Below, in pieces: positions 9,301 to 48,880 of a DNA stretch of 64,000 bases. Origin of the DNA: Xiphias gladius (Eukaryota > Chordata > Actinopteri > Istiophoriformes > Xiphiidae). The stretch's first letter is position 1. Every line of letters begins with the position of its first letter. Made by a program: the position numbers and the translations under genes. The DNA lies in assembly GCF_016859285.1 (NCBI RefSeq), contig NC_053409.1, positions 21,275,976-21,339,975 of the forward strand, given 5' to 3'. The notes beneath the pieces were generated by a model. That model did not search any database and was not told the origin of the DNA. It was given only the letters and a program-made list of their open reading frames with translations.

Positions 9301-12300
9301 ATGGAAGAATTGCGAAACCAACTGGAAAGCAAGGTAAGTCTACTAGATAGCACATATTTCACATTTCTCAAACATCTGTGAATTATATTATTAAAAACAA
9401 ACTGAGAAGAGACATATAGATGCAGTATCAGTATTGTGAATTGAGGCATGATGTGGCATTTTAGCCACTGATATGTACTTTAATTGGATTTTCCTGGTTC
9501 CTGTGCCTCAAAGTACTTTTGAAGTTTTCTTGCTGAGAGTGAGATGTGTCTTTACAAGTAGTCGTTAAGCTAACTTGCTGCTGGCTGTAGCTTCCTATTT
9601 ACCGTAGACAGTTTTTGTTATATAGGACAGAGCCATCCTAGCCGCTGCCTGTAGCTACATATTTACCATACAGAAAAGAGAGATTGATTTTCAAATCTAG
9701 CTCTGCAAGAAAGCAAATAAATGTAACTCCCAAAATGTTCAACTATTCGTTTTAATTCCTCTACTTTTTTTATTGCTACAGATCAGTGAATTTGATAAGA
9801 TGGTAGAAAAGCAGAGGGCAACCCATGAGGAACAGAAGGCTGCGTTAGCTGTCCAGTGCCAGCAGGAGGTCCAGGTTTTGAGGGAGGAGATGGCCACCGT
9901 TCAGAGCCAGGTAGAGGAGCTCCAGAGCCAGCTAGAGCAGGCGGAGCTGGAGCAGACCTGTCTGGAGCAGAAGCAGGCCGAGGAGAGGGAAGAGCTCAAA
10001 AATCTGCAAGAGGAGGAAGTCGGAAACCTCAGACAAAAGCTGCTGGAGGCCCACGCTTACACTGTAGACCTTGAGGAGCAGCTGAAGACCCTTGAAGCCC
10101 AACAGGCTGAGATGGATGAAAACCTTCACACTGAGATGGAGGAACTGAAAAAACAACATGCCATGGAGGTCAAGAAACTAGAGGAGGAACATGTAGGACT
10201 TGCTGAAGCCAGATTTGAAGAGGGGAGAAATAAATTGCAGGAAGAAAAGGCTGAGTTGGAGAAGAAGTTGTTAGATGATTATGAAAGGGAGAAGGAACTT
10301 TTCCAACAAAGCCACGAGGCTGAACTGGAGTCTAAACTAGAGGAGGCAAAGTTGAGGTTTGAGGAGGAGCGGGATGACATCATGCAGAGACTTACAGAGC
10401 AGTGGCAGAAAGAGAGGGCTCAGCTGGATGAGCAGAATAATGAGTCTCTGCAGGTGTTGCTGGAGGAAGAGATGTTGAGACTTGTCAAGGAACAAGAAGA
10501 GAAGGAGAGCAAGCTCAGAGAGCAGTGGGAGATTGAACGAGCTCAGCTTCAGGACCATCATGAGGACACTTTACTCAAAAGAATACTTCAAGAAAGACTG
10601 GAGTTACAAGAGCAGTTTGAGCAGAGGGAGAAAAACTTAAAGGAGGAGTGGGAGAGGGAGAGACTGCAGCTGGAGGAGGATTATGAAGGGATGCTCCAGG
10701 ACAGGTTGAATGAAGAGCGGGAGAAGCTTGAGACCGAGAAAGAGGAGGTGGAGAAGAGACTAGAAAATTTAACATCAGAGGAGAGGGCTCGTCTAGAGGA
10801 GAGCCACCGAGAGGCCGTGAAGGAACTGACTGCAAAGCACACTGAGGAGAGGGACGCACTCAGCAGCATGCTGGACAAACTTCGAGATGAAATCGCTCAA
10901 GAGAGGTGAGACCCATGACTTTTGAGAGATTTTTCAGAATTTCATTTATGTCATAGTAACTTTTTTAAAAGTGCATTATTTACAAGAATAGTTTTACATT
11001 TTGGGAAATTTGCTTATTTGCTTTCTTGTCGAGAGTTACAAGAGAAGATCGATACCTCTCGCACAGCTGTAGGGTACATGTAAGGCTATAGCCAGCAGCC
11101 AGTTAGCGTAGCGTAGCTTAGCTTAGCATAAAGACTTAAAGACAGGGGGAAATGTCTGGCTATGTCCACGACCTCACCTGAACCAAAGTTCACAAATAAC
11201 GCGTTATATCTTATTTGTTAAATCCATAGTGAAGTATAAAAATGACAAGTTGTGGTTTTACAGGGGGTTGTGTGTCAGACTGTTTCCCCGTAAAACCACA
11301 ACTTCTCATTTCTATACTTAAGCATTGTGTGGACTAAATAAACAAAATATAAAATATTAATTATAGAGCTTTAGAGGTGCTGGTAGGTGGCTTTATTACT
11401 TTTGGATAGAGCCAGGCTAGTTCTTTCCCTCATGTTTCCACTGTTTATGCTAAGCTAAGATCTACTGGCTGTAGCTTCATATTTACCATACAGAGGGTGC
11501 TATCGATCTTCTGATCTAACTTGCGGCAAGAAAGCGAATAAGTGGATTTTCCAAAATGTTGAACTATTCCTTTTAAAATAAGAAAAAAGTTGTATTTGGT
11601 CAGGATTGTTAAAATTTCTTGTACTAGTAAGAGTTCAAAACTGTTGCCATAACAATCATTGAATAACCATGTACAGGAGGGAAATTGAGATCAGCTTCAC
11701 CCAAAGAATTAAAGAAGTGGAAGATCGTTTCTCAGGTGATCAAGAATCTATTGCAGAGCGTTTTCAGGCTGATGTTTTAAAACTGGAACAGCACTACCAA
11801 AGTGAGCTGAAGGCGCTTGTTAAAAGCCATGGTGAGGAGAAGCTCCACTGGGAGACACAGATACAGAAGGCTCTTGAGAATGCTGAGGAACAAAGAAGAA
11901 TGATAGAAGAGTCCATGGAGCAGGAAAAAGAGAGCCTGAATCAAGAGTGGACAAAAGAACAATACAAGCTTGAAAGTATTCACAAGGAAGAACTGGAAGA
12001 ACTGATGATAAAGAACAAGAAATTGCAGAACCAACTGGATGATTTCGTTAGTATGGCCCAGACAAAAGAGATAGAGCTCAGTAGGCAGCTGAATGACCTC
12101 CATAACCGTCTCCAGGAAAGCCTGGAGACCAAAGACGAGCTTCTTGCTCAGTCTGAGAACAAAGCATTTCAGATTGAGCTCCTGTTAAATCAAACAGTGG
12201 AAGATTTTAAACAGGAGAGGGAAGAATATCTGAGTATCCAGTCAGAACTCGAGGCAAAATACAACGAGATCCTCATGATGTCTGAGAGGCAGATAAAAGA

Positions 12301-15300
12301 AAGGATTGAATTGTTAACAGAGCGAGATGATTTAAAGATGAAGATTGAGGAGCTGGAGATGCTACTTAAACAGGCAGTAGTGGACTTTGAACTCGAGAGG
12401 AGGGAGTTACAGGAACATACTTCTATTCTTGAGGAGAAGTTAAAAGATAATCTTGAGAGTGACAGTGAAGAGCTTATAGCAGGGAGAGATCTGCTTATAG
12501 TAAGAATTAAAGAGCTAGAGAAGGAACTCAATCAGGTTTTGGCCTCTAGGGAAAAGGTTGAGAAAAAAGAAATAGGGGAATCAAATGACTTAAAAACATT
12601 TACAGAGGAGGTGCAAAACACCAGAGAATGTATTTCTTTGTCCGGTGAAGAACAGGAAACACGTTTGGCACCTGAAATCCGGATCAATGATTTTGTTATT
12701 CCTACAGATTCCTCTAATGAGGAACTAGTTTGTTTGTCACCATTTCTGCTTGAACAAGATATTGATGCAGGGAAAGTAATGGATACCCCGGATGCAGGGT
12801 ATGGAGGCCCTGAAAATATCATAAATGTTGATGATGAATATGATAAAGAGGCTCCTACTACCAATGATGATGAAGTTGTCAACATGCCAAAAATAGGGAT
12901 GGATGACGCTGAGAACCGAGAACATGACAATCAAATTGTTGTGACTGAGAATAATAACACATGGTCTAAAAACGCCAGTGGTGTTGGTGAGGGATGTGAA
13001 AATGAAATAGGTACTGTTTCTGAATGCCAAATTGGAGTTTCAAGCCCCGAAGAAGGCCCTCATGTTGGCTGTTGTTCCACAGAAATTGGACTTTGTCATG
13101 AAGAAGACACTAAATCAAAGAAAATTGAAAACACTGAGGAATCTGTTTCCCCAGAGATGGAGTGTGAGCCACTCCCATCGCTTAAGGTGTTTGAAGGTGT
13201 GGGTGCTGATAAAGATGCAACACATGGTGAGAATAAAATAGCTCTTGAATCATGTGAGGATGAGTACAAACCTCGAGATTTACCCACTTTGAACTCTGGA
13301 AGCTCTTCCCCTGAAGATGAGCCGTGTCATGAGACTGTGGTTTATCCATCAGTGCTGGAGGAGACGGGTGACCCTGGTGAACTGTATCTGGAGGATGTTG
13401 AGGTTAATTGTTTACTAAATAACTCTCACCACCATAACCAGGAAGCTGAATTGGTTTCAGACTCAGACTGTGAAAATTTAACTGGTATATTAAAGGATGA
13501 GCATGCCGACTGCGCACATGATTGTCTGGAAGATCTGGATCAAGATGGTGATTGTGAGGGTCAGGATCGCTCTCTCCATAAACTACAGGTTTTGTATAAC
13601 ACCGCTACAGAGGAGAACATTCTCCTACATGAGAAGATTTCTCTGCTTCAACAGAAGACAGAAATACTAGAGAATCTTCTGGCTCATAACAGTGAAAAAA
13701 TCAAAACTGGCCACCAGATTTTGGAGGAAAACTATAGCCTAAAAGTTAAATTGATCCTGTTAATGGAGCACATCAAAGAGCTAGAGATAAAGGCCTTAAA
13801 AATGACAGATCTTCAGATTCGATATGAAGATTGCATGTGTGAAAATGCCAAACTTAAGGATCAAAACAGTGAACTTGAAAAGAGGGTTTGGAGCCTTGAA
13901 AGCAGGATGAATATTCTCCACAATTTCCAAGATAAGCAGATTTCACTTGTGGATGAGATCAGCAGGATGAGGGAAGAAAACACCAAGCTGTCAGAGTTGT
14001 TCGGTGAACTGGAGAGGCATGATGAGATTCTTTCAGCCGTGCATCCAGACGCTGGGCAGTCAGAGAGCCCCACGGAGGAGGATTTGGTGGATCTGACCAG
14101 TCAGCTGCTGGTTAAAGTTCAGACGGCGAGTGACCTCGAGGAATGCTGTGAACAGTTTGAGAAGCAGAACACCAAACTTCGCAGAGCCGTCACAGACCTC
14201 CAGGACAAGTCGCAGACATTAAATGAAACAACACAGAGCCATAGGTAACGTGGAGAAAAACTAGGATCCCGTCCTCCCATGTCTCCCGTGGCTTCTCGTT
14301 GTCCCTACCCTTTGGTGCTTTGATTTTTAAGAGTGCTCCTCCTTTTGTTCCCAAGCACAACATAGTGCGGTATGTCCTACATGTGATTACCGTCCTGATG
14401 CCCCTAAACCTTTGTGCGGTGCAACAGATCTTGATCAACATTTGTGGTACTTTGATCCCTGTGGACCACCAGTAGAAAGGCAAATACTAGCAAGTTTAAT
14501 GTGTGTAATTCATAGAACAAGCTTCTTTTAATCAATATGTAGCAAAGCATTTCTGAACAATTCTGATGTATTTTAAACGTGTATTCTGTGGATTGTAGCT
14601 TTTAAGTATCTATTTTTTGACTTTGTCTAATGTAGTTTTTTCCGTCTATAGATCTGAGGCCAGTCGTCTTGCTGAAGAAAACCTTGTCCTCAGGCAAAAG
14701 ATTGCTGCGTTGAAGGAAGAGGACTTGAAAGAGGCCCAGGAAGAGTTGATGTAAGAAACACCAACTATTATTTTCAATGAATCATATCACTGCATTTTAC
14801 TTTTGTCGTTTAAATGGATATTTTCCCCGCTCGTTACATTTTAGACAAACTTTGGAGTACTTAAAAAAAGAGAAGAGCGCAGCTCAGAAGGCAGCAGAAA
14901 ATTTCAGGAAACAGGTACTTTACATGTCACTTGATAAATTAAGTTTTCGAAACAGCTTGCTCTGTGTCTTTTCTACAGTCAGAAACAGGTCATGAAATGT
15001 TAATGGGTTTCCTCCTCTGCAGATTTCAGAGCTGCGTTTTCAGAGCCAGCAACTGGAGGATGAGAATGGGATGCTGTCGGAGAAAAATGTCCAAAATATT
15101 GCTGATATGGAGAACCTGCAACAGCAGCTGGCAGAGCTGATAAAGGAAAACGAGAGGAGGGAGGCGTTCCCTGCTGAAGAGAAAAACAAGGTAAACAATA
15201 TGTCGTGACAGACTGATGGTCATCATAGTGTTGTGGTCGTAGTGGGTAGTTAATTGGTGGCTGTTTTGTGTTAGCTGGCAGCTTGTGTGTCTGCTCTGGA

Positions 15301-18300: not shown

Positions 18301-21300
18301 ATTTTCCATTCCCTTTTTTTTTTTTGTTTGAATGCTGGGTTTGCTGTGCTCCTTGTTTTGGTGATTGTCGCAGATCCACCTCAGCACCTGTTTGTCTTCA
18401 TCTCCTTAAGTCGTGTGTAGTGTTTACTTTTTGGGTTTGGAATTTAGCCTGTAGTACCTGTGTGTGTCTTCGTTGTGTTCACTGTCTTTATTTAATTTTC
18501 GATCTCGGGACTGAAGTAAAGTCAGTGGTGCAGGTACAGTACAACTGGGCGTGGTCCCTGTGGCTGTTTTTTCCATTTGTCACCTTTTGCGGAGTCGCAC
18601 TGCACAAACTTCTGTCTCTTCCCAACAGGTAGATGTAGATTGTCCAGGTTTTTTTGTAAATGGAGTCATCTCACTGTTAGTGTATTTTAACAGCATCTGA
18701 CCTCTTGGTGTGTCATTTTAATCTGCAGCTGGACACCCAGTTATCAATAGGTTACCATGAATATAGTGGAAGGAAGGAAACACAATTATTTAATACCTTC
18801 ATTTAATACATTCATTGTATATACCACACATTTATGTTAAGATTTTTTTGCCAGCTTAGCTCAGTTTTGTTTATATGTCTGGTCATTCACATGACCTCGT
18901 GGGATTATTCAGACACGTAAATCAGCAACAAACCAAACATGATGATATATGGAAATGGAAATTAAATAAGATAAATAAATGCACACAGCTTCACATAATA
19001 CAAAAATAAACATAATGTACAGATATAAAGAAATATAACCCTAACAAAATAAATCCATATTCAAGCCATATTAACTGAGGTTTTTATCCACTATAGTTAT
19101 TTTTGTCCTATTTAGCTTTGAAAAAGTTGATTTAAACCGTTTAAAAAAACAAACAAAGAATGCACTTTTCTAAACCATAGAATAAATTTATTGTACACGC
19201 AACTGTTATATAAAGTGGGATTTTAGTTTTATGTTGGTGGTGGTTTTACTGTATAATGTTTACCAGCTGGCAGGTCATTTGTTCTGCACTACAGCAGTGA
19301 ACATCAGTTATTGAATGAAGTAACTTTGGGTCTACTCAGGTAAATAGTCTCCCAAAGTGTTCAATATTAAATTAATGAATAAGAAATAAATAATATATGA
19401 ATAAATTCGGACAAAATATGTAATGTAACCATGAAATTGTGACAAGATCTAACTTTTTTTTTTTTTTTTTTTTTTTTTGTAATAGTCAGCATGTTATGTG
19501 ATTGGCTGTCCACTCACTCAGACTGAAGCAACGCCCAATCACATAACTGGATCTGTCCTGTTGGTTATTTCATAAAGCCACAAAATTTGCAATTAACTCA
19601 AAGTTTATTTAAACTTAAAACAGTACTCACATGCTTGTATGTACGTTAACACAATCTGTTCGTCTTTTTTGTTTGTTTGTTTGTTTTAGTGCAAAATTTC
19701 CCATTTTTGTTTTCCCACACGGTGTTGCCTGGGGAGGGATGATAACACAAGGAGGATTCTTTTGTTATTATTAAAAAGACTTCAATTTGAAGATATCCAT
19801 TTGATTTGTTTACTTTGGAATGCATTTTATTTTGTCCCACATCCCTTACTCTGCATTGGGAAGACATCTCTTTATAGCCAGTATGGACCAGGACTAATGA
19901 TTGCAGCAACCCAAAACTCTTTCAGTGTACATGTTGGCATGCTGGTATTGTTTGAAGACAAACTTGAAAAATATTGGATTATTTCACAATTTCATGGTTG
20001 TGTATTTTTGTCTGTATTTATGTACATCATTAATTCATAATTCTTATCATTCTCATAAGTCATCCTTATTTATTTAGTGCTGAACACACTTCTCAATATG
20101 TACTGACCATAAATAGGCCTGCTTACTGACCAGCCCTCTGTAGGTTTTTAGGATTAGAGGAGAGGGTAGAGCTCTGGTGAAGTGTACCTGCCTTTTCTCT
20201 CCAGGGGGCCATGCCGGAGCAGCGGGCGGCTCACGCAGACAGCTACCGGCGGATCGGCGGATTGTAACGTCGAGCGTCTTTCTCCGCTCTCCACTTTATC
20301 CTCTTTTTACCTCCAAGACTGCTCTGCTCGTATTCTGCACTTCCTCTGCTTTGTTTGGAGCAAAAATCAGACTGTAGCACAAAATGCCGTCTTCTCTGCA
20401 TCCTTATAGGAGATTGTGAACAAGTTTTCTGCCTGATCCAAAAGGCACGGCTGTGTAATTGTATTTCCTTTCTGCTAGGTGGCAGGAAAACACAGAAAAG
20501 ACCCCCGGTGGTTTTTCCCAATGGGATTTCAATTAAAGTAGTCACATTACCATTGAAAATGCAAAGTTTGTAGGACATGCCGTACAAAATTCAACATCTA
20601 CATGTAAAGACTACAATGTGGCATCTTGACAAACATGAATTATTGGAATTTTTAATTCTTGATCACAGGGAGTCTTTTTAACGCAGGAAGTATTTTCTGG
20701 GAATGTTCTGTTCTGCACTTGCTGTACCATTTACCATTGTCTGAGACAGGTTGTGTATATATAAATACATACATTTATATATATATATATATGTCCTCGG
20801 AGGCTAAATCTTGTTTGACAGTTTGCCTTATGATCATCAAGGAGTGTTAATGTTGAGGCGAGGTTAGTGCCTGACAGCCTTCTGAGCCTTCTCTAACAAT
20901 CAAGCAATTTCAACCTGTTGTTGTCAGGTGATGTTACTGCCTGTGTCCAGTCAGGGTTTCTGGAGATTTCTTAATGGAGGTACAGAGTCTTCACTGTTTG
21001 TCTTTTTCTTGTTTATGCCTGTATTTCCTATTTGGCACTGCACATATTTGAATGTTTCTCCAAGCTACCTGTTGATGTTAATTTTGAGTTCTGGGTCTGT
21101 GTGTTGCTGTTTTTGTTGCTGCTGCACAACCAAAGTGAATCAAAAGTTTCGGGGTAATGGTTTTTTTGTTTTTTTTCCTCTCTCTCTCCGTAAATAAGGA
21201 CCGTTAAACACGTCACACAACTATTAACTTTCCATATTTATCTGGTATTTATTATTAGAAATTCCATGTGAACCAAATCATTGTTTTTAGTACAATTACT

Positions 21301-23211
21301 ACAATAGTACAATTATATGTTGTTATTATTGTATCTGTCCTGGTTTTTGAATCATGCAGTGAGTCTTGTTTTTCTTTTTTGCACCATGTATAGACTTAAA
21401 TGTATTTTATTTGTTTTATTATTTTGTTATTTATTTTAGGAGAATCATGTTAGGGTTTATTTTATTTATGCATTAAATTATTTTTTGTAGCGGTATCTGG
21501 AATACATGGCATAATTTTATACCTATTTATATATATATATATTTGTTTTGTTTTTTTTAGTGTATTTGCTTCTCTTTACAAATGTACTAGATCTTAATGC
21601 AGAAATCAAGAGAAAATAAAAGCACCTAGCTCACAAGAATTTGGTTTGTATGTTGTTTCTGAATTGTCTCACCCCAGAGTCTTATAGTTTACACCCGCTC
21701 AAAGGCAAGATCATTCAAATTTCATTATATTTTATTGCATTTGCAGCAATTTGATGATATCATTCATTGTCTTTTCACCAGGATGAAAGAGAGAGGAAGA
21801 TGAAGAATATGGAGGAGCGTATGAGGGAAATTGAACTGTCACTGCATAACGTCAAGCTGCTGCTCAAAGAGAAGGTTGCTCAGCTGAAAGACCAGGTCAG
21901 TTCAGAAAGCTCATATCCATAATTCAGCGTCTTCTCTTGTAAAATCAACTTAAAGGGGAAAAAAATTGTACTCAAAAATATATCAAATACATAATTTTGA
22001 AAGATTTTCAAAAGTACTACAGTTATGGAACTTGGAAGTGTTTTTGTATAAAAGGCCACAGTAGATTTTAATTCGATTTTTAGAAGTGGAAAAACCAGTA
22101 TGGAGGAAAAATTGGATTTTCTCTGAGATCTAGTAGCCTACAGAGCCTGACCTATACTTAATTGATGAGTCCAATATTGATATTTGAGAGATATAAAATC
22201 CGATTACCATATATGGGCCGATATTCTCTTCTCTTAACAAAACAGCTTGAATGAAGTGTTATTGAACTCCAGCGCACTGTCAAGACTGAGTTTTATTGAG
22301 ACGAAAAAATGTCAGGTATCAAATTAATGGTGGGAATACTAAATCTAAATCTTTAAACTGAAGCCAGAGGTTGTAGCAACCAATCAAAAAGGAAACCAAA
22401 TCTGAAAACACGTGATCCAAATCTCCTGAGACAATTACCACATCAATAATAATAAATAAAATTATCCTTATCAAACAAGTAAAATAGTCAAAAAAAAAAA
22501 AACCCCGAGAAATTATCCAAATATTTCACGAGGAGAAAGCAATATGCATAATGGCAAGAGGAAAATAGCAACCAAATTCAAAATGGGGAACATCCCAACA
22601 ACATGTCGCAGCAAAAAGTGAATTACCAATTCACCACCAAGTGTTCTGTCAAAAGTAGATCCAATAAGTTTCCCTCCTTTTTAAAAAGTGTGTTAAGGTT
22701 GCTGCCCCGTGTTCAGACTGAAGCAACGCTTGAATTGTGACCAAGACATTGTATGTCCTGAGCAGGATATTTTAGTTAGAAAGACATATCTTTTGCAGAC
22801 ATATCTTTTGCCTCCCTGTACTGAAATTTCTTTGCTACATATCGGTCAACGTACAGTATAGCAATACATCACAACAAGCTAATGCTAGCTGATAATATTG
22901 GCCAGCCAATTGTTCATTCAGGCTCTAATAGCAACATTAAATGGGATTAATTATGGATCGAAACCTTCATCATCTACTTTCTCTGACTTTCCCAGCTTCA
23001 CAAGAACGGCAAAGCGGATGTGCTGATCAAAGACCTGTATGTGGAGAACGCCCAGCTGCTGAAAGCTCTGGAGATAACCGAGCAGCGGCATAAAATCGCA
23101 GAGAAGAAGAACTACCTGCTGGAAGAGAAGATCTCCAGCCTTAACAAGATAGTGCGAGACCTAAACCCATCTCCCCTTCCCTCACTACCGTACCACTATA
23201 AATGTTCATAA
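396..23211 (+). CDS. NIN: Ninein, centrosomal microtubule-anchoring coiled-coil protein (28 coding exons)
   Basis: Ninein anchors microtubule minus ends at the mother centriole's subdistal appendages (family knowledge). Exons: 375-587 (ATG 396), 1647-1740, 3100-3272, 5458-5500, 5591-5766, 6194-6340, 6630-6797, 7070-7206, 7431-7571, 7980-8154, 8392-8502, 8654-8743, 8924-9059, 9212-9333, 9782-10905, 11677-14244, 14652-14750, 14845-14914, 15023-15190, 15275-15391, 15677-15790, 15995-16141, 16623-16802, 16916-17050, 17150-17251, 17504-17596, 21782-21895, 22996-23211. All junctions are GT-AG; the 7152 nt total stays in frame (2383 aa). Residues 1-380 carry EF-hand-like segments (FDTSGCGSLCPEEL near residue 20; LTGDGVMNVQEF; FNLDGKLSLSDL), the rest is Glu/Gln/Leu-rich coiled coil. 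KRYGRRS, TPSASTPYRQLKRH, ENELLVTKN and DLYVENAQLLKALE match human ninein. ATG 396 follows a polypyrimidine-AG at 374 and starts MDDAQEQ, like human MDEVEQD. The protein is longer than the human one (about 2,100 aa), mainly through exon 16. Confidence 0.96.
588..1646 (+). other. NIN intron 1
   Basis: About 1.06 kb with no coding exon, RNA gene or clear repeat visible. The open frames here do not match ninein and lack coding character. Confidence 0.6.
1741..5457 (+). other. NIN introns 2 and 3 around exon 3
   Basis: Apart from exon 3 (3100-3272), I see AT-rich intron with one fish interspersed repeat at about 4065-4302 and a T-run near 5153-5169. A GC-richer, less repetitive stretch at about 4480-4960 could be a conserved non-coding segment, but the sequence alone does not show that. 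Confidence 0.5.
4065..4302 (-). repeat. Teleost 'GGGCTGCAACTAA...AATCGATT' interspersed element, minus orientation
   Basis: It contains, in reverse orientation, hallmark segments shared with the copies at 39.2-40.1 kb and 50.5-54.8 kb: 'cttctcaaatgtggagatttg', 'gcacaagcaatttgaagaca', 'tgattaattgattatttg' and 'taatggtcagatgcatcccta'. It is a degenerate non-coding element within NIN intron 3. Confidence 0.65.
6589..6613. repeat. (AAAT)n microsatellite
   Basis: A run of about six AAAT units just upstream of the acceptor of NIN exon 7 (6630). It separates the probable branch region from the short pyrimidine tract ttttcactccatacag. Confidence 0.85.
9500..9765 (+). repeat. Partial relative of the foldback element
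   Basis: Segments such as 'gctggctgtagcttcctatttaccgta', 'gctacatatttaccatacag', 'gcaagaaagcaaataa' and 'ccaaaatgttcaactattc' match the right arm of the larger element at 10986-11573. One end is eroded. It lies directly upstream of the acceptor of NIN exon 15. Confidence 0.6.
9782..10905 (+). CDS. NIN: NIN large coiled-coil exon 15
   Basis: This 1124-nt exon encodes about 375 residues (roughly 635-1009) of almost uninterrupted Glu/Gln/Leu/Arg heptads with repeats of the type EEERxxLxEQ. It enters in phase 0 after a tacag acceptor and leaves in phase 2 at a gtgaga donor. Together with exon 16 it makes up half of the protein. The base composition is strongly purine-rich on the coding strand, so the reverse strand shows Leu/Ser-rich shadow frames that are not genes. 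Confidence 0.92.
10986..11573. mobile_element. Foldback/MITE-like DNA element with long terminal inverted repeats
   Basis: The left end (gaatagttttacattttggg, then gcttatttgctttcttg and ttagcttagcataaagac) is matched in reverse complement by the right end (gctaagctaagatct, gcaagaaagcgaataag, ccaaaatgttgaactattcc), giving arms of about 200 bp. Inside is a second near-perfect inverted repeat at 11231-11265/11286-11320 with a loop of about 20 nt. There is no coding capacity, so it is a non-autonomous element, here between the two largest NIN exons. The family is common in percomorph genomes; I do not assign a superfamily. Confidence 0.75.
11677..14244 (+). CDS. NIN: NIN giant internal exon (exon 16), in-frame cassette
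   Basis: This single exon of 2568 nt encodes about residues 1010-1866. Both boundaries are phase 2 (an Arg codon is split at each end) and 2568 is exactly 856 codons, so skipping keeps the frame. It starts in coiled coil (RREIEISFTQRIKE), passes through a low-complexity acidic stretch (about 12550-13600, rich in Glu, Asp, Ser and Asn), then returns to coiled coil. It lies just upstream of the segment EASRLAEENLVLRQKI, which places it at the same position as the roughly 2.1-kb exon 18 of mammalian NIN. That exon is reported to be differentially included in neural progenitors and neurons. Here the splicing is inferred, not observed. Confidence 0.9.
17597..20204 (+). other. NIN intron 26, 5' part
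   Basis: No supported coding exon is seen in these 2.6 kb. It is AT-rich, with a T-run at about 19453-19478 and a 12-bp inverted repeat at 19494-19505/19535-19546. Open frames such as the one near 18324-18632 are Cys/Phe-rich, lack splice-consistent borders and look random. Confidence 0.6.
19494..19546. repeat. 12-bp perfect inverted repeat (hairpin) in NIN intron
   Basis: The arms ttatgtgattgg (19494-19505) and ccaatcacataa (19535-19546) are perfect complements around a 29-nt loop, just after a long T-run. The loop-side 17-mer tcagactgaagcaacgc recurs at 22713-22729 in the last NIN intron, so this may be a fragment of a dispersed repeat. No function is claimed. Confidence 0.55.
20205..20267 (+). 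CDS. NIN: Candidate alternative last coding exon of NIN
   Basis: A pyrimidine tract ending ctctccag at 20204 is followed by 63 nt that read, in the phase 0 left by exon 26, GAMPEQRAAHADSYRRIGGL and then TAA. The exon lies in the 4.2-kb intron between exons 26 and 27. A plausible 3'UTR follows, with a polyA signal (AATAAA at 21615) and GT-rich sequence behind it. Use of this exon would replace the canonical C-terminal 109 codons. Mammalian NIN has a neuron-associated isoform with an altered C-terminus that loses centriolar targeting. Whether this exon is its homologue is inference; the codon phase, acceptor, stop and polyA signal are visible. Confidence 0.6.
   Translation, partial: GAMPEQRAAHADSYRRIGGL
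21615..21620 (+). terminator. Polyadenylation signal for the alternative NIN last exon
   Basis: AATAAA lies in 'gagaaaataaaagc', followed within about 30 nt by T/G-rich sequence (tttggtttgtatgttgtttc). It is 1.35 kb downstream of the alternative stop at 20267 and about 160 nt upstream of the acceptor of exon 27, so it is well placed to end a short NIN transcript. Competition between cleavage here and splicing to 21782 would decide the isoform (inference). Confidence 0.55.
21896..22995 (+). other. Last NIN intron
   Basis: About 1.1 kb with no coding exon visible between exon 27 and the final exon. An A-run occurs at about 22490-22501, and a 17-mer shared with the hairpin region at 19.5 kb lies at 22713. 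Confidence 0.55.
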
Positions 23212-24110
23212 TGCATCACCTAAAATACCTATACGTGCTCAGGGCATCAACAGCACTCCAAAGTCAACCATACACTGCACTGTTTGTTTACTGCAAATTC
23301 TTCTTCCGTCTTTGAAAAATACATTTCTTATTGAACCCTCCTGCAACAGATCCAACCAAATGGACAGGGAAAAAAAGTTGTTTTTTTTCCTTTCATGTCC
23401 ACTGCCATGTTTTATCCTGTTTTTAGCCTAAATGTTACGGTGTTAAATATGCAGTATTTTTTCATTTTATATTAAGCAATAATGATCTTACATGTGTTGG
23501 ACCTATGAGGAACCAAATGTGAAGGTTAGCCTGTAAAGAAAACATGCTATTTTACAGTTATTTATAATTTTTTAAATATTTTTCAAAGCAGTAGCTGTTA
23601 CTAGTAAATGAGTAAATATTTTTACCATGACACTATACTCCTCTCCCAAAAGAGAGACGCAATACTGAAGTGCACTCTTTATATAAGTGTTCTTTTGTCT
23701 TTGTTGTCAAAGAGATTGTGTACATCTGTCTGTCCTTTAAGTCTCTAGCCCCTCATGTAAAGAAGAAACAGAAGCAAGTCAGTAGTGAAATCATGTAAAG
23801 AGAAAAGTCAAATAATCTGATGACCTTTTTAAGGTATTTGCTTTCGTGTAACACCACCTGGAGTTGCGTTCACTTTACATGTCTGTCAATTCGCAATACT
23901 TGGTATTTATGTTTGAATAAAATCCTATGATCTGTTGCAATATGTAAAGTGAGAATGTGTAAAGCTGTAATTGAAAATTATTCCATCATGAATGTTTGTG
24001 ATTCAAATCGAGGACCTTGTCTTTGTAACTGCTGCAGAGTAAGCACTAAAGTGTAAAACAGGGTAATGTTTTGTGTTTTCAGTATAAATAAAATACATAA
24101 ATTGTGTTTG
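23212..24110 (+). other. NIN 3' untranslated region
   Basis: AT-rich sequence follows the stop codon at 23209-23211. Two polyadenylation signals occur, at 23916 (gaataaaatcc) and 24087 (aaataaaatac); the second is followed by a GT-rich stretch (ttgtgtttggtctg). The last 240 nt lie inside the tandem duplication, so both signals are present again at 25186 and 25357. Confidence 0.7.
23916..24092 (+). terminator. NIN polyadenylation signals
   Basis: AATAAA at 23916-23921 and AATAAA at 24087-24092 are both on the NIN strand. A GT-rich downstream element starts at about 24100, so the distal signal is the better-supported cleavage site. Confidence 0.65.
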
Positions 24111-24242
24111 GTCTGATTTGGTATTTGATTAATTTGTTGCTTCTGTTTAACGATAATCTCCTCACTCCCCTGCTGGTTTATCCATCTATAGATGGCCGTG
24201 GACCCTACAAATAGGATACAAGACATTCATTTCCCTCAAGCA

Positions 24243-24420
24243 GTGGTGGAAAGTAACTAAGGATATTTTTACTCAAGTGCTGTACTTGAATGCATTTTTC
24301 AAGGTAAAACACTTGCAGGTTTCTAGCATGTTTTACATTTCTATTCCAGTACATCTTAGAGGTAAACATTGTACTTTGTTTTGTTTTTTTTAACTTGTAT
24401 TTTACATCCATATACAGATA
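24243..24420. repeat. Teleost 'GTGGTGGAAAGTAACTAAG' element, end fragment (also at about 25513-25690)
   Basis: The opening 'agtggtggaaagtaactaag', followed by 'ttttactcaagtgctgtacttgaa' and 'ccagtacatcttagaggtaaacattgtac', is the characteristic left end of a widespread fish element. It lies inside the duplicated unit, so it appears twice. Confidence 0.7.
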
Positions 24421-24879
24421 TAAGCTTATGATCTTTGCACTGAATATGTTACCTAGTAGTATGTGAAGCAATTTAAACGAGCTCCACCTCAACATTAAAC
24501 TTTGATTTATGATCAATAAAGAGCCAATCATATATTTATACAACACTGGCATGGGGCCAGTCTGCTAAGTGTGCACTCTTGATACATTTTAAACAGCTTG
24601 CTCTTAAATATTTGCGTGCTTGGGGACATTTTCAATGCAGGTCTACTTGGAATTCATTATTCCCACTCAGAACCAAATGTAACAACCGCTATTTAACGCC
24701 ATACGTTTGCACAACTTTTGCTGCTCCGTGTGCAGAGCTCACATCTCCTGTGATCGGTTTGGAGTCAAGGCACTCGTACGCATTTGTTAAATTTTGCTGT
24801 CGCTTGTGCGTTGCGTCGGTGGACGAGCTGTGTACTTCAGTCAACCCTATTTGTGTTTGTGCTCAACGGTCCGCTCGCA

Positions 24880-25140
24880 GAAGGGCAGGACCGCGCAGTA
24901 ACCATTCCCGGCGAGGAACGGCGGTGGGAGTGCATCGCTGCTCAGAGCGGACTGGACCGCCGCAGGAAAGACGCTCCCAGTCGCTCGAGTTAGCTGGCTA
25001 ACTTGACGCTAGCTGATCGGAAGCTTAAAATGTCGTCTCTCTGCGCTTTGCAAAGTGAACGGGACGGTCGCAGAGTCGAGGGATTGTGCCATGAGATTGC
25101 AGCGCCGTGTTGTTGATGTTTCCGAGCCTTGAGTTATGCT
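24880..25140 (+). promoter_or_regulatory. Duplicate (orphan) copy of the SAV1 promoter/5'UTR
   Basis: CpG-rich sequence almost identical to the stretch just upstream of SAV1 exon 1 (26150-26407). The copy keeps the SAV1 ATG (25136) but only two codons of it. The frame then reads into duplicated NIN 3' sequence and stops after 16 codons. The exon-1 splice donor (26502) is absent from this copy, and NIN-type polyA signals follow at 25186 and 25357. Confidence 0.6.
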
Positions 25141-26407
25141 CACTTTACATGTCTGTCAATTCGCAATACTTGGTATTTATGTTTGAATAAAATCCTATGA
25201 TCTGTTGCAATATGTAAAGTGAGAATGTGTAAAGCTGTAATTGAAAATTATTCCATCATGAATGTTTGTGATTCAAATCGAGGACCTTGTCTTTGTAACT
25301 GCTGCAGAGTAAGCACTAAAGTGTAAAACAGGGTAATGTTTTGTGTTTTCAGTATAAATAAAATACATAAATTGTGTTTGGTCTGATTTGGTATTTGATT
25401 AATTTGTTGCTTCTGTTTAACGATAATCTCCTCACTCCCCTGCTGGTTTATCCATCTATAGATGGCCGTGGACCCTACAAATAGGATACAAGACATTCAT
25501 TTCCCTCAAGCAGTGGTGGAAAGTAACTAAGGATATTTTTACTCAAGTGCTGTACTTGAATGCATTTTTCAAGGTAAAACACTTGCATGTTTCTAGCATG
25601 TTTTACATTTCTATTCCAGTACATCTTAGAGGTAAACATTGTACTTTGTTTTGTTTTTTTTTAACTTGTATTTTACATCCATATACAGATATAAGCTTAT
25701 GATCTTTGCACTGAATATGTTACCTAGTAGTATGTGAAGCAATTTAAACGAGCTCCACCTCAACGTTAAACTTTGATTTATGAACAATAAAGAGCCAATC
25801 ATATATTTATACAACACTGGCATGGGGCCAGTCTGCTAAGTGTGCACTCTTGATACATTTTAAACAGCTTGCTCTTAAATATTTGCGTGCTTGGGGACAT
25901 TTTCAATGCAGGTCTACTTGGAACTCATTATTCCCACTCAGAACCAAATGTAACAACCGCTATTTAACGCCATACGTTTGCACAACTTTTGCTGCTCCGT
26001 GTGCAGAGCTCACATCTCCTGTGATCGGTTTGGAGTCAAGGCACTCGTACGCATTTGTTAAATTTTGCTGTCGCTTGTGCGTTGCGTCGGTGGACGAGCT
26101 GTGTACTTCAGTCAACCCTATTTGTGTTTGTGCTCAACGGTCCGCTCGCAGAAGGGGCAGGACCGCGCAGTAACCATTCCCGGTGAGGAACGGCGGTGGG
26201 AGTGCATCGCTGCTCAGAGCGGACTGGACCGCCGCAGGAAAGACGCTCCCAGTCGCTCGAGTTAGCTGGCTAACTTGACGCTAGCTGATCGGAAGCTTAA
26301 AATGTCGTCTCTCTGCGCTTTGCAAAGTGAACGGGACGGTCGCAGAGTCGAGGGATTGTGCCATGAGATTGCAGCGCCGTGTTGTTGATGTTTCCGAGCC
26401 TTGAGTT

Positions 26408-26412
<5 letters not shown>
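25141..26412. repeat. Tandem duplication, copy 2 (1272 bp)
   Basis: The second head-to-tail copy runs directly into SAV1 exon 1. Relative to copy 1 it has an extra T in the T-run near 25650 and an extra G at about 26156. The junction (gagttatgct|cactttacat) shows only about 2 bp of microhomology between the flanks, which fits non-homologous or replication-based duplication. A false duplication in the assembly cannot be excluded from sequence alone. Confidence 0.95.
26150..26407 (+). promoter_or_regulatory. SAV1 CpG-rich promoter / 5'UTR
   Basis: CpG density rises sharply here against the AT-rich surroundings (for example 'ggaccgcgcagtaaccattcccgg', 'cgctcccagtcgctcgag'), and it continues through the SAV1 first coding exon. 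No TATA box stands out. The start site is not defined by sequence. Confidence 0.6.

Positions 26413-34229
<7,817 letters not shown>

Positions 34230-34285
<56 letters not shown>
34230..34285. repeat. (GT)28 microsatellite at the start of the SAV1 3'UTR
   Basis: A pure GT run of about 56 nt starts 3 nt after the SAV1 stop codon (TGA at 34225-34227). It explains the Val/Cys- and His/Thr-repeat frames seen on both strands, which are not genes. Confidence 0.95.
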
Positions 34286-38112: not shown

Positions 38113-47330
<9,218 letters not shown>

Positions 47331-48394: not shown

Positions 48395-48880
48395 GATGGT
48401 GGAAGGTAACTAAGTATATTTACCTGAATATAGTTTTGAAGTGCCTGTACTTTGCTCGAGGATGTCCATTATATACTCCTACTCCACTTTTAGAGGGAAA
48501 CATCGTTTTTTTTTTAAATTCCACTGTATTAATTTGACAACTTTAGTCACTAGGGTCTTTGAAGGTCAAGCGTTTTCATACAAAACACACAATCTTATAA
48601 AATACTATACATTGTTATAGGTTAAACTCTCCAAGAATATTTAACGCAAATAAAATTTACTCCACCTCAACCCGCTACATTCACAAAATGCAAAGCATCA
48701 TATCTTATATGCTTGTTTATGAGTTTTTAAAATCTTAATCTGCAAAGTTATTTGCAAGAAAAATGTAGTTGAGTGGAACTACAAAGTAGAAGAAAATTAA
48801 AATACTAAGGGTAAGTTCAATTACCTCAGAACTGTACAGAACTGAAGTAATTGTACTTACGTATAATCCATCACTGAGGA
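48395..48880. repeat. Near-complete 'GTGGTGGAAAGTAACTAAG' element in the ATL1-MAP4K5 spacer
   Basis: The left end 'gatggtggaaggtaactaagtatatttacc', internal 'ctactccacttttagagggaaacat' and right end 'aagtaattgtacttacgtataatccatcactg' form inverted termini. It is non-coding and sits between the two divergent promoters. The rest of the spacer (47.8-48.4 and 48.9-49.4 kb) has A/T runs and no gene. Confidence 0.65.

Follow-up and report, generated by a model that had tools for sequence, protein, structure and literature searches.

The window analysed here, a stretch of DNA 64,000 nucleotides long in its entirety, has a fish-like gene content in which NIN is directly followed by SAV1, both on the + strand. 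NIN was identified through a large upstream exon (11663-14248) that matches several fish proteins named ninein (97 matches, in a search in which scoring was limited to the 7994 candidates with the most words in common). The identity of SAV1 is indicated by 617 database matches; among the best 120 of these, the six best named ones are 88-91% identical to the predicted protein and are called "protein salvador homolog 1", and the top matches are SAV1 of two cichlids (91% and 90%), of Pholidichthys (91%) and of further ray-finned fishes, which would suggest a percomorph-like source. The five-exon model of SAV1, for which the splice sites were chosen by hand, starts at 26408 and is open across 414 codons, yielding a 414-residue protein, and two NIN exons are open over 402 and 861 codons. 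The features that define the two genes around the intergenic spacer are the following.

23209..23211, + strand: NIN stop codon, placed from the last open frame in the translation
26408..26501, + strand: coding part of SAV1 exon 1 (31 codons and 1 base; donor GT at 26502, 7.0 bits)
27701..28210, + strand: SAV1 exon 2, with an in-frame ATG at 27706

In Pfam, the WW domain was the sole match for SAV1, and no match was obtained for the two NIN frames or for a minus-strand frame at 40210-40767. A search of solved structures with SAV1 retrieved, among the best 60 of 70 matches, SAV1 chains (the WW region and the C-terminal part) along with other WW proteins, none of which bears on the duplication. 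Exon 2 of SAV1 contains a pure CAG tract of 14.3 units (28045-28087) that encodes polyglutamine, and the glutamine runs in the 11 relatives compared are shorter than that of the SAV1 in the window; a long TG dinucleotide run lies directly 3' of the SAV1 stop codon, at about 34228-34285. A narrow literature search on the synteny of SAV1, NIN and ATL1 found nothing on this neighbourhood.

A head-to-tail duplication of the NIN-SAV1 spacer

Alignment, self-BLAST and a repeat search all delineate two adjacent copies of the spacer, arranged head to tail around a single junction.

23871..25140, + strand: copy 1, distal to SAV1 (1270 bp)
25141..26412, + strand: copy 2, adjoining SAV1 (1272 bp)
25139..25142, + strand: novel junction, at which the SAV1 coding start is joined to the NIN 3'UTR with 2-bp microhomology (TC)

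In self-BLAST of the 64 kb (low-complexity filtering, E-value limit 1e-5), the copies constitute one of 8 pairs, with 1287 columns at 99.1% identity; the other 7 pairs do not exceed 86% identity (57 columns for that pair) or a length of 217 columns (68% identity for the longest). There is no second near-identical pair in the window, and widespread assembly duplication within it was rejected on this ground. The repeat search detected the copies at spacings of 1270, 1271 and 1272; Tandem Repeats Finder (TRF), run on 20000-30000 with a longest period of 500, did not list them. A 24-base stretch of the unit, used as an exact pattern, had 0 matches in viral contigs, in a search that may not include records from the genome of the window itself.

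The copies differ by 5 substitutions (copy 1/copy 2: 24318 G/25588 T, 24494 A/25765 G, 24513 T/25784 A, 24653 T/25924 C and 24912 C/26184 T) and by two 1-bp homopolymer indels, with an extra T at 25654 and an extra G at 26154 in copy 2. An apparent eighth difference, at the final base, is produced by the bounds chosen for the alignment. The substitutions amount to a divergence of 0.39% over 1270 bp. All 7 differences are confined to the middle 595 bp of the unit (24318-24912 against 25588-26184), and the first 447 bp and the last 228 bp are identical in both copies; under a uniform distribution, such clustering has a P value of 0.044 for all 7 differences and of 0.15 for the 5 substitutions taken alone. 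The preliminary description, in which near-identical tandem copies of about 1.27 kb with about five substitutions and two 1-bp indels had been counted by eye, is thus confirmed by alignment and self-BLAST.

From left to right, the unit encompasses NIN 3'UTR, the NIN poly(A) signals, a CpG-rich stretch and the beginning of SAV1 through codon 2. Its left edge lies inside the NIN 3'UTR, downstream of the stop codon and 45 nt upstream of an AATAAA, and its right edge falls in codon 2 of SAV1. The earlier statement that the unit carries the NIN poly(A) signals together with the SAV1 5' flank is therefore correct, with the right edge slightly beyond the ATG, and so is the statement that no full exon was copied, given that one breakpoint lies in the NIN 3'UTR and the other in exon 1 of SAV1.

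Each copy also contains the repeat-like stretch AGTGGTGGAAAGTAACTAAG, at 24242 (24242-24261) and 25512, respectively, which recurs with 3 mismatches at 48395 and which we take to resemble the end of a fish MITE. We rejected a repeat element as the cause of the duplication because neither breakpoint falls in the MITE-like stretch at 24242. Structured RNA was also discarded, as a scan of the window against Rfam (gathering thresholds) gave 0 matches.

Sequence of the breakpoints

The junction includes neither a gap nor an insert, and the two shared bases (TC) make the placement of the edges ambiguous by 2 bp. An exact 2-bp microhomology is unremarkable and within chance expectation (P 0.16 among random pairs). 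Beyond the exact match, the parental breakpoints agree at 11 of 15 positions when counted by eye (CCT.GAGTT..G.TC). With mismatch penalties of 0.5-1.5, the anchored homeology score has P values in the range of 0.0007 to 0.0104 against random position pairs, and at penalties of 1 or 1.5 the score is matched by 0.3-1.0% of such pairs; at penalties of 2-3, it is not significant (P 0.066-0.175). The outcome accordingly depends on the scoring, and the test was picked after the repeat search had shown the extension. At this level, the homeology of the breakpoints lends mild support to a biological join. No tandem array with a TRF score of at least 50 is present between 22812 and 28044 (scan of 20000-30000).

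Microhomology-mediated tandem duplications are characterized by a short shared sequence at the breakpoints and a clean junction. The junction described here resembles these in having a short shared breakpoint sequence and a single clean join with no insert, but differs in that the exact microhomology is only 2 bp long and within chance, and the homeology is scoring-dependent.

A real duplication or an assembly artefact

Taken by itself, the sequence is compatible with both a true and a false tandem duplication, the two alternatives that had been correctly framed in the preliminary description, and we lean towards a real event with moderate confidence. This preference stems from the gapless junction, the edges free of tandem arrays, the lone occurrence of such a pair, the open reading frames and the imperfect homeology of the breakpoints. 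The open SAV1 model and the two open NIN exons imply that no frameshift error is visible in these regions. The divergence of 0.39% does not discriminate between the alternatives; it fits a real and a false duplication alike and lies within ordinary heterozygosity.

In a false duplication, either both haplotypes would have been placed in tandem (a heterotype error), with the gap possibly closed by a gap filler, or an overlap between contig ends would have been left uncollapsed (a homotype error). We consider these two variants, taken jointly, an appreciable possibility that falls short of being probable. Five substitutions in 1270 bp is an ordinary allelic distance, for comparison with a diversity of 0.3% in herring (PMC5524536), and 2 of the 7 differences are homopolymer indels, a kind that sequencing error also produces. 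False duplications are reported to be widespread in assemblies, with 7 to 24% located on the same scaffold (PMC9516828), and homotype duplications are described as lying near contig boundaries and having about the length of a read (PMC8081667). In our view, a unit of 1.27 kb would be of a suitable size for Sanger or corrected reads. The near-identical tandem copies with allelic divergence found here do resemble the heterotype and homotype duplications as described in these two sources. Among the marks of false duplication given by Ko et al. 2022 (PMC9516828) are half depth, gaps between the copies, discordant pairs and single-copy k-mers; according to the same source, gaps are most often present although some false copies were joined by wrong gap filling. 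Unlike the false duplications so described, the copies here are separated by no gap, with 0 N at the junction and in all 64000 bases of the window. Furthermore, no array with a TRF score of at least 50 occurs near either edge, an exact overlap of 2 bp at the junction would be too short for an overlap join, and no second such case is found in the 64 kb.

Chance similarity, or an interspersed repeat that happens to occur twice, is extremely improbable. The short MITE-like stretch within the unit does recur at 48395, which would suit a repeat, but the copies extend head to tail over 1270 bp with 5 substitutions and have gene-specific content, and self-BLAST reveals no further copy in the window, which makes this reading untenable.

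We favour a real, young, simple tandem duplication of the entire spacer between the co-directional NIN and SAV1 genes, which was probably microhomology-mediated. Combined with the transcriptional consequences outlined below, this account is, in our estimate, somewhat better than an even proposition.

Predicted fate of transcripts from the upstream copy

The duplication brings the putative promoter of SAV1 and the terminator of NIN into a new order, defined by the following features.

23916..24092, + strand: NIN poly(A) signals, copy 1 (AATAAA at 23916 and 24087)
24601..25140, + strand: CpG-rich stretch before SAV1, copy 1 (putative promoter and leader)
25136..25186, + strand: chimeric 16-codon frame, from the SAV1 Met-Leu start into the NIN 3'UTR
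25186..25362, + strand: copied NIN poly(A) signals, copy 2 (AATAAA at 25186 and 25357)
25801..26412, + strand: CpG-rich stretch and leader, copy 2, joined to SAV1 (putative promoter)

The observed/expected CpG ratio averages 0.46 over the window; it ranges from 0.87 to 1.21 across the three 200-bp bins of copy 1 (24601-25200) and is 0.61, 1.06 and 1.14 in the copy 2 bins to 26400. The copied AATAAA hexamers are positioned 45 and 216 nt past the junction, and the second signal of each set (24087 and 25357) is followed by a G/T-rich stretch (0.82). The last nucleotide of the stop codon of the chimeric frame is at the same time the first nucleotide of the copied poly(A) signal. The duplicated unit lacks the SAV1 exon-1 splice donor (26502). 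Donor scores were computed with a splice-donor matrix; between 24701 and the first copied signal, the best donor-like site reaches 5.1 bits, compared to 7.0 for the donor of SAV1 exon 1. Just beyond the first copied signal, there are donor-like sites of 7.5 bits (25219) and 5.5 bits (25309), which could weaken termination. Given that U1 protects transcripts from premature use of poly(A) sites (PMC5499120), the missing exon-1 donor and the weakness of the donor-like sites make early cleavage likely.

Under the proposed mechanism, the downstream copy would continue to serve SAV1, whereas the upstream copy would start transcription of an RNA that never extends to SAV1, being cut at the copied NIN poly(A) signals. 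Copy 1 is predicted to yield a short transcript, a few hundred nt in length, that contains small frames (28, 13, 24 and 16 codons); its last start codon ahead of the junction would be SAV1's own, fused into the 16-codon frame. NIN would end at its original first set of signals, with the second set as a backup. The effect on the dose of SAV1 should be small, barring an enhancer-like action of the second CpG-rich stretch or use of the new donor described below. If the duplication is real, then, the extra promoter is most likely self-terminated and yields a short RNA rather than more SAV1.

The preliminary description had read the arrangement as a gene with two promoter copies in tandem. That the CpG-rich flank was duplicated is borne out; a second working promoter of SAV1 is not, in view of the copied poly(A) signals and the missing donor, and the notion of two promoters for SAV1 is probably wrong in effect. 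For a real duplication in which both copies drive SAV1, as in a dual-promoter gene, and raise or diversify its expression, one can point to the retention of the CpG-rich stretch in both copies and to the fact that these differ merely by 5 substitutions and two 1-bp indels. The RNA from copy 1, however, would have to read through two copied NIN poly(A) signals, has no exon-1 donor and would carry an unspliced leader rich in start codons (24900-26407 contains 26 ATG, compared to 3 for 26172-26407), so we hold the dual-promoter reading to be very unlikely. It is the poly(A) signals past the junction and the missing exon-1 donor that make copy 1 more likely to be a separate, self-terminated unit.

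A donor-like site in the downstream copy and the N-terminus of SAV1

One of the 5 substitutions creates a candidate splice site in the SAV1 leader, which the preliminary description does not mention.

26180..26188, + strand: strong splice-donor-like site CCG|GTGAGG, copy 2 only (9.1 bits)

At 24912/26184, copy 1 reads CCGGCGAGG and copy 2 reads CCGGTGAGG, that is, C against T, and the site with T at 26184 scores 9.1 bits compared to 7.0 for SAV1's own donor. The C is probably ancestral, as a change of CG to TG is common. If SAV1 transcription starts upstream of 26182 and the site is used, splicing from 26182 to exon 2 would leave the usual start codon out of the mRNA. The first ATG in exon 2 (27706) is in frame and would give a protein of 381 residues, with 33 fewer N-terminal residues. 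Among the best 120 of the 617 database matches, many of which are labelled predicted isoform or partial or are nameless, 86 SAV1 models start with MLSRKK, 6 start exactly at the exon-2 Met (P0012, P0034, P0097, P0099, P0101 and P0105) and 28 have another beginning, among them partial records and models in which a different first exon is joined ahead of LMPSF. With such labels, the models indicate no more than that forms starting at the exon-2 Met are plausible. An extended scenario, in which a real duplication made a complete mini transcription unit in a single step by copying a promoter along with the neighbour's terminator and left the copy adjoining SAV1 free to change, and in which the T at 26184 shifts part of the SAV1 mRNA to the form starting at Met 27706, appears unlikely.

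Two cichlid SAV1 models (P0001 and P0002) have an in-frame start 7 codons ahead, MFSEPGV-MLSRKK. The leader in the window, ATGTTTCCGAGCCTTGAGTTATG, resembles this sequence when the protein is back-translated by eye, on which the equivalence of the ATG rests, and converting one into the other takes a change of 1 bp in length plus one or more substitutions. This similarity is a slight indication that the leader immediately ahead of SAV1 is old. An upstream ATG frame (26388-26474) overlaps the SAV1 start out of frame. The SAV1 model of a sturgeon (P0041, Acipenser oxyrinchus) starts with two exon-1-like modules in tandem, MLSRNKS...LLRR followed by MLSRKKS..., and these may represent an independent duplication around SAV1 exon 1.

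Age of the duplication, if real, and its relation to known cases

With a rate of 6e-9, close to the mean fish mutation rate of 5.97e-9 (PMC9995274), 5 substitutions correspond to about 0.33 million generations, with a range of 0.11-0.77 million from Poisson limits, an estimate that is valid only if the duplication is real and free of gene conversion.

In Drosophila, tandem duplications that place the 5' end of a gene before new sequence have been described as "recruited non-coding sequence" (PMC5460883, PMC4503668), and "dual promoter genes" are named beside this type (PMC4503668). The duplication described here is similar to the recruited non-coding type as given in these sources in that it captures the 5' end and the putative promoter of a gene and sets them before sequence not previously driven; in the assembly as given, the SAV1 leader and start codon are joined to the NIN 3'UTR at 25140/25141. 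It differs from the Drosophila cases in that the captured sequence is the 3' end of a neighbour with its poly(A) signals, so that immediate termination would follow, and in that the host is a fish. If real, the NIN-SAV1 duplication belongs to this known kind, with the terminator of the neighbouring gene as the recruited part.

If the duplication is an artefact, it provides a further warning against accepting promoter duplications from an assembly unless reads support them. SAV1 is a scaffold gene of the Hippo pathway, and a change in its leader that would alter the N-terminus is directly checkable. If the duplication is real, it represents a natural test of the case in which duplication of the spacer between co-directional genes adds a promoter with a terminator just behind it; the downstream gene should hardly be affected by duplications of this kind, which would nevertheless create a new short RNA.
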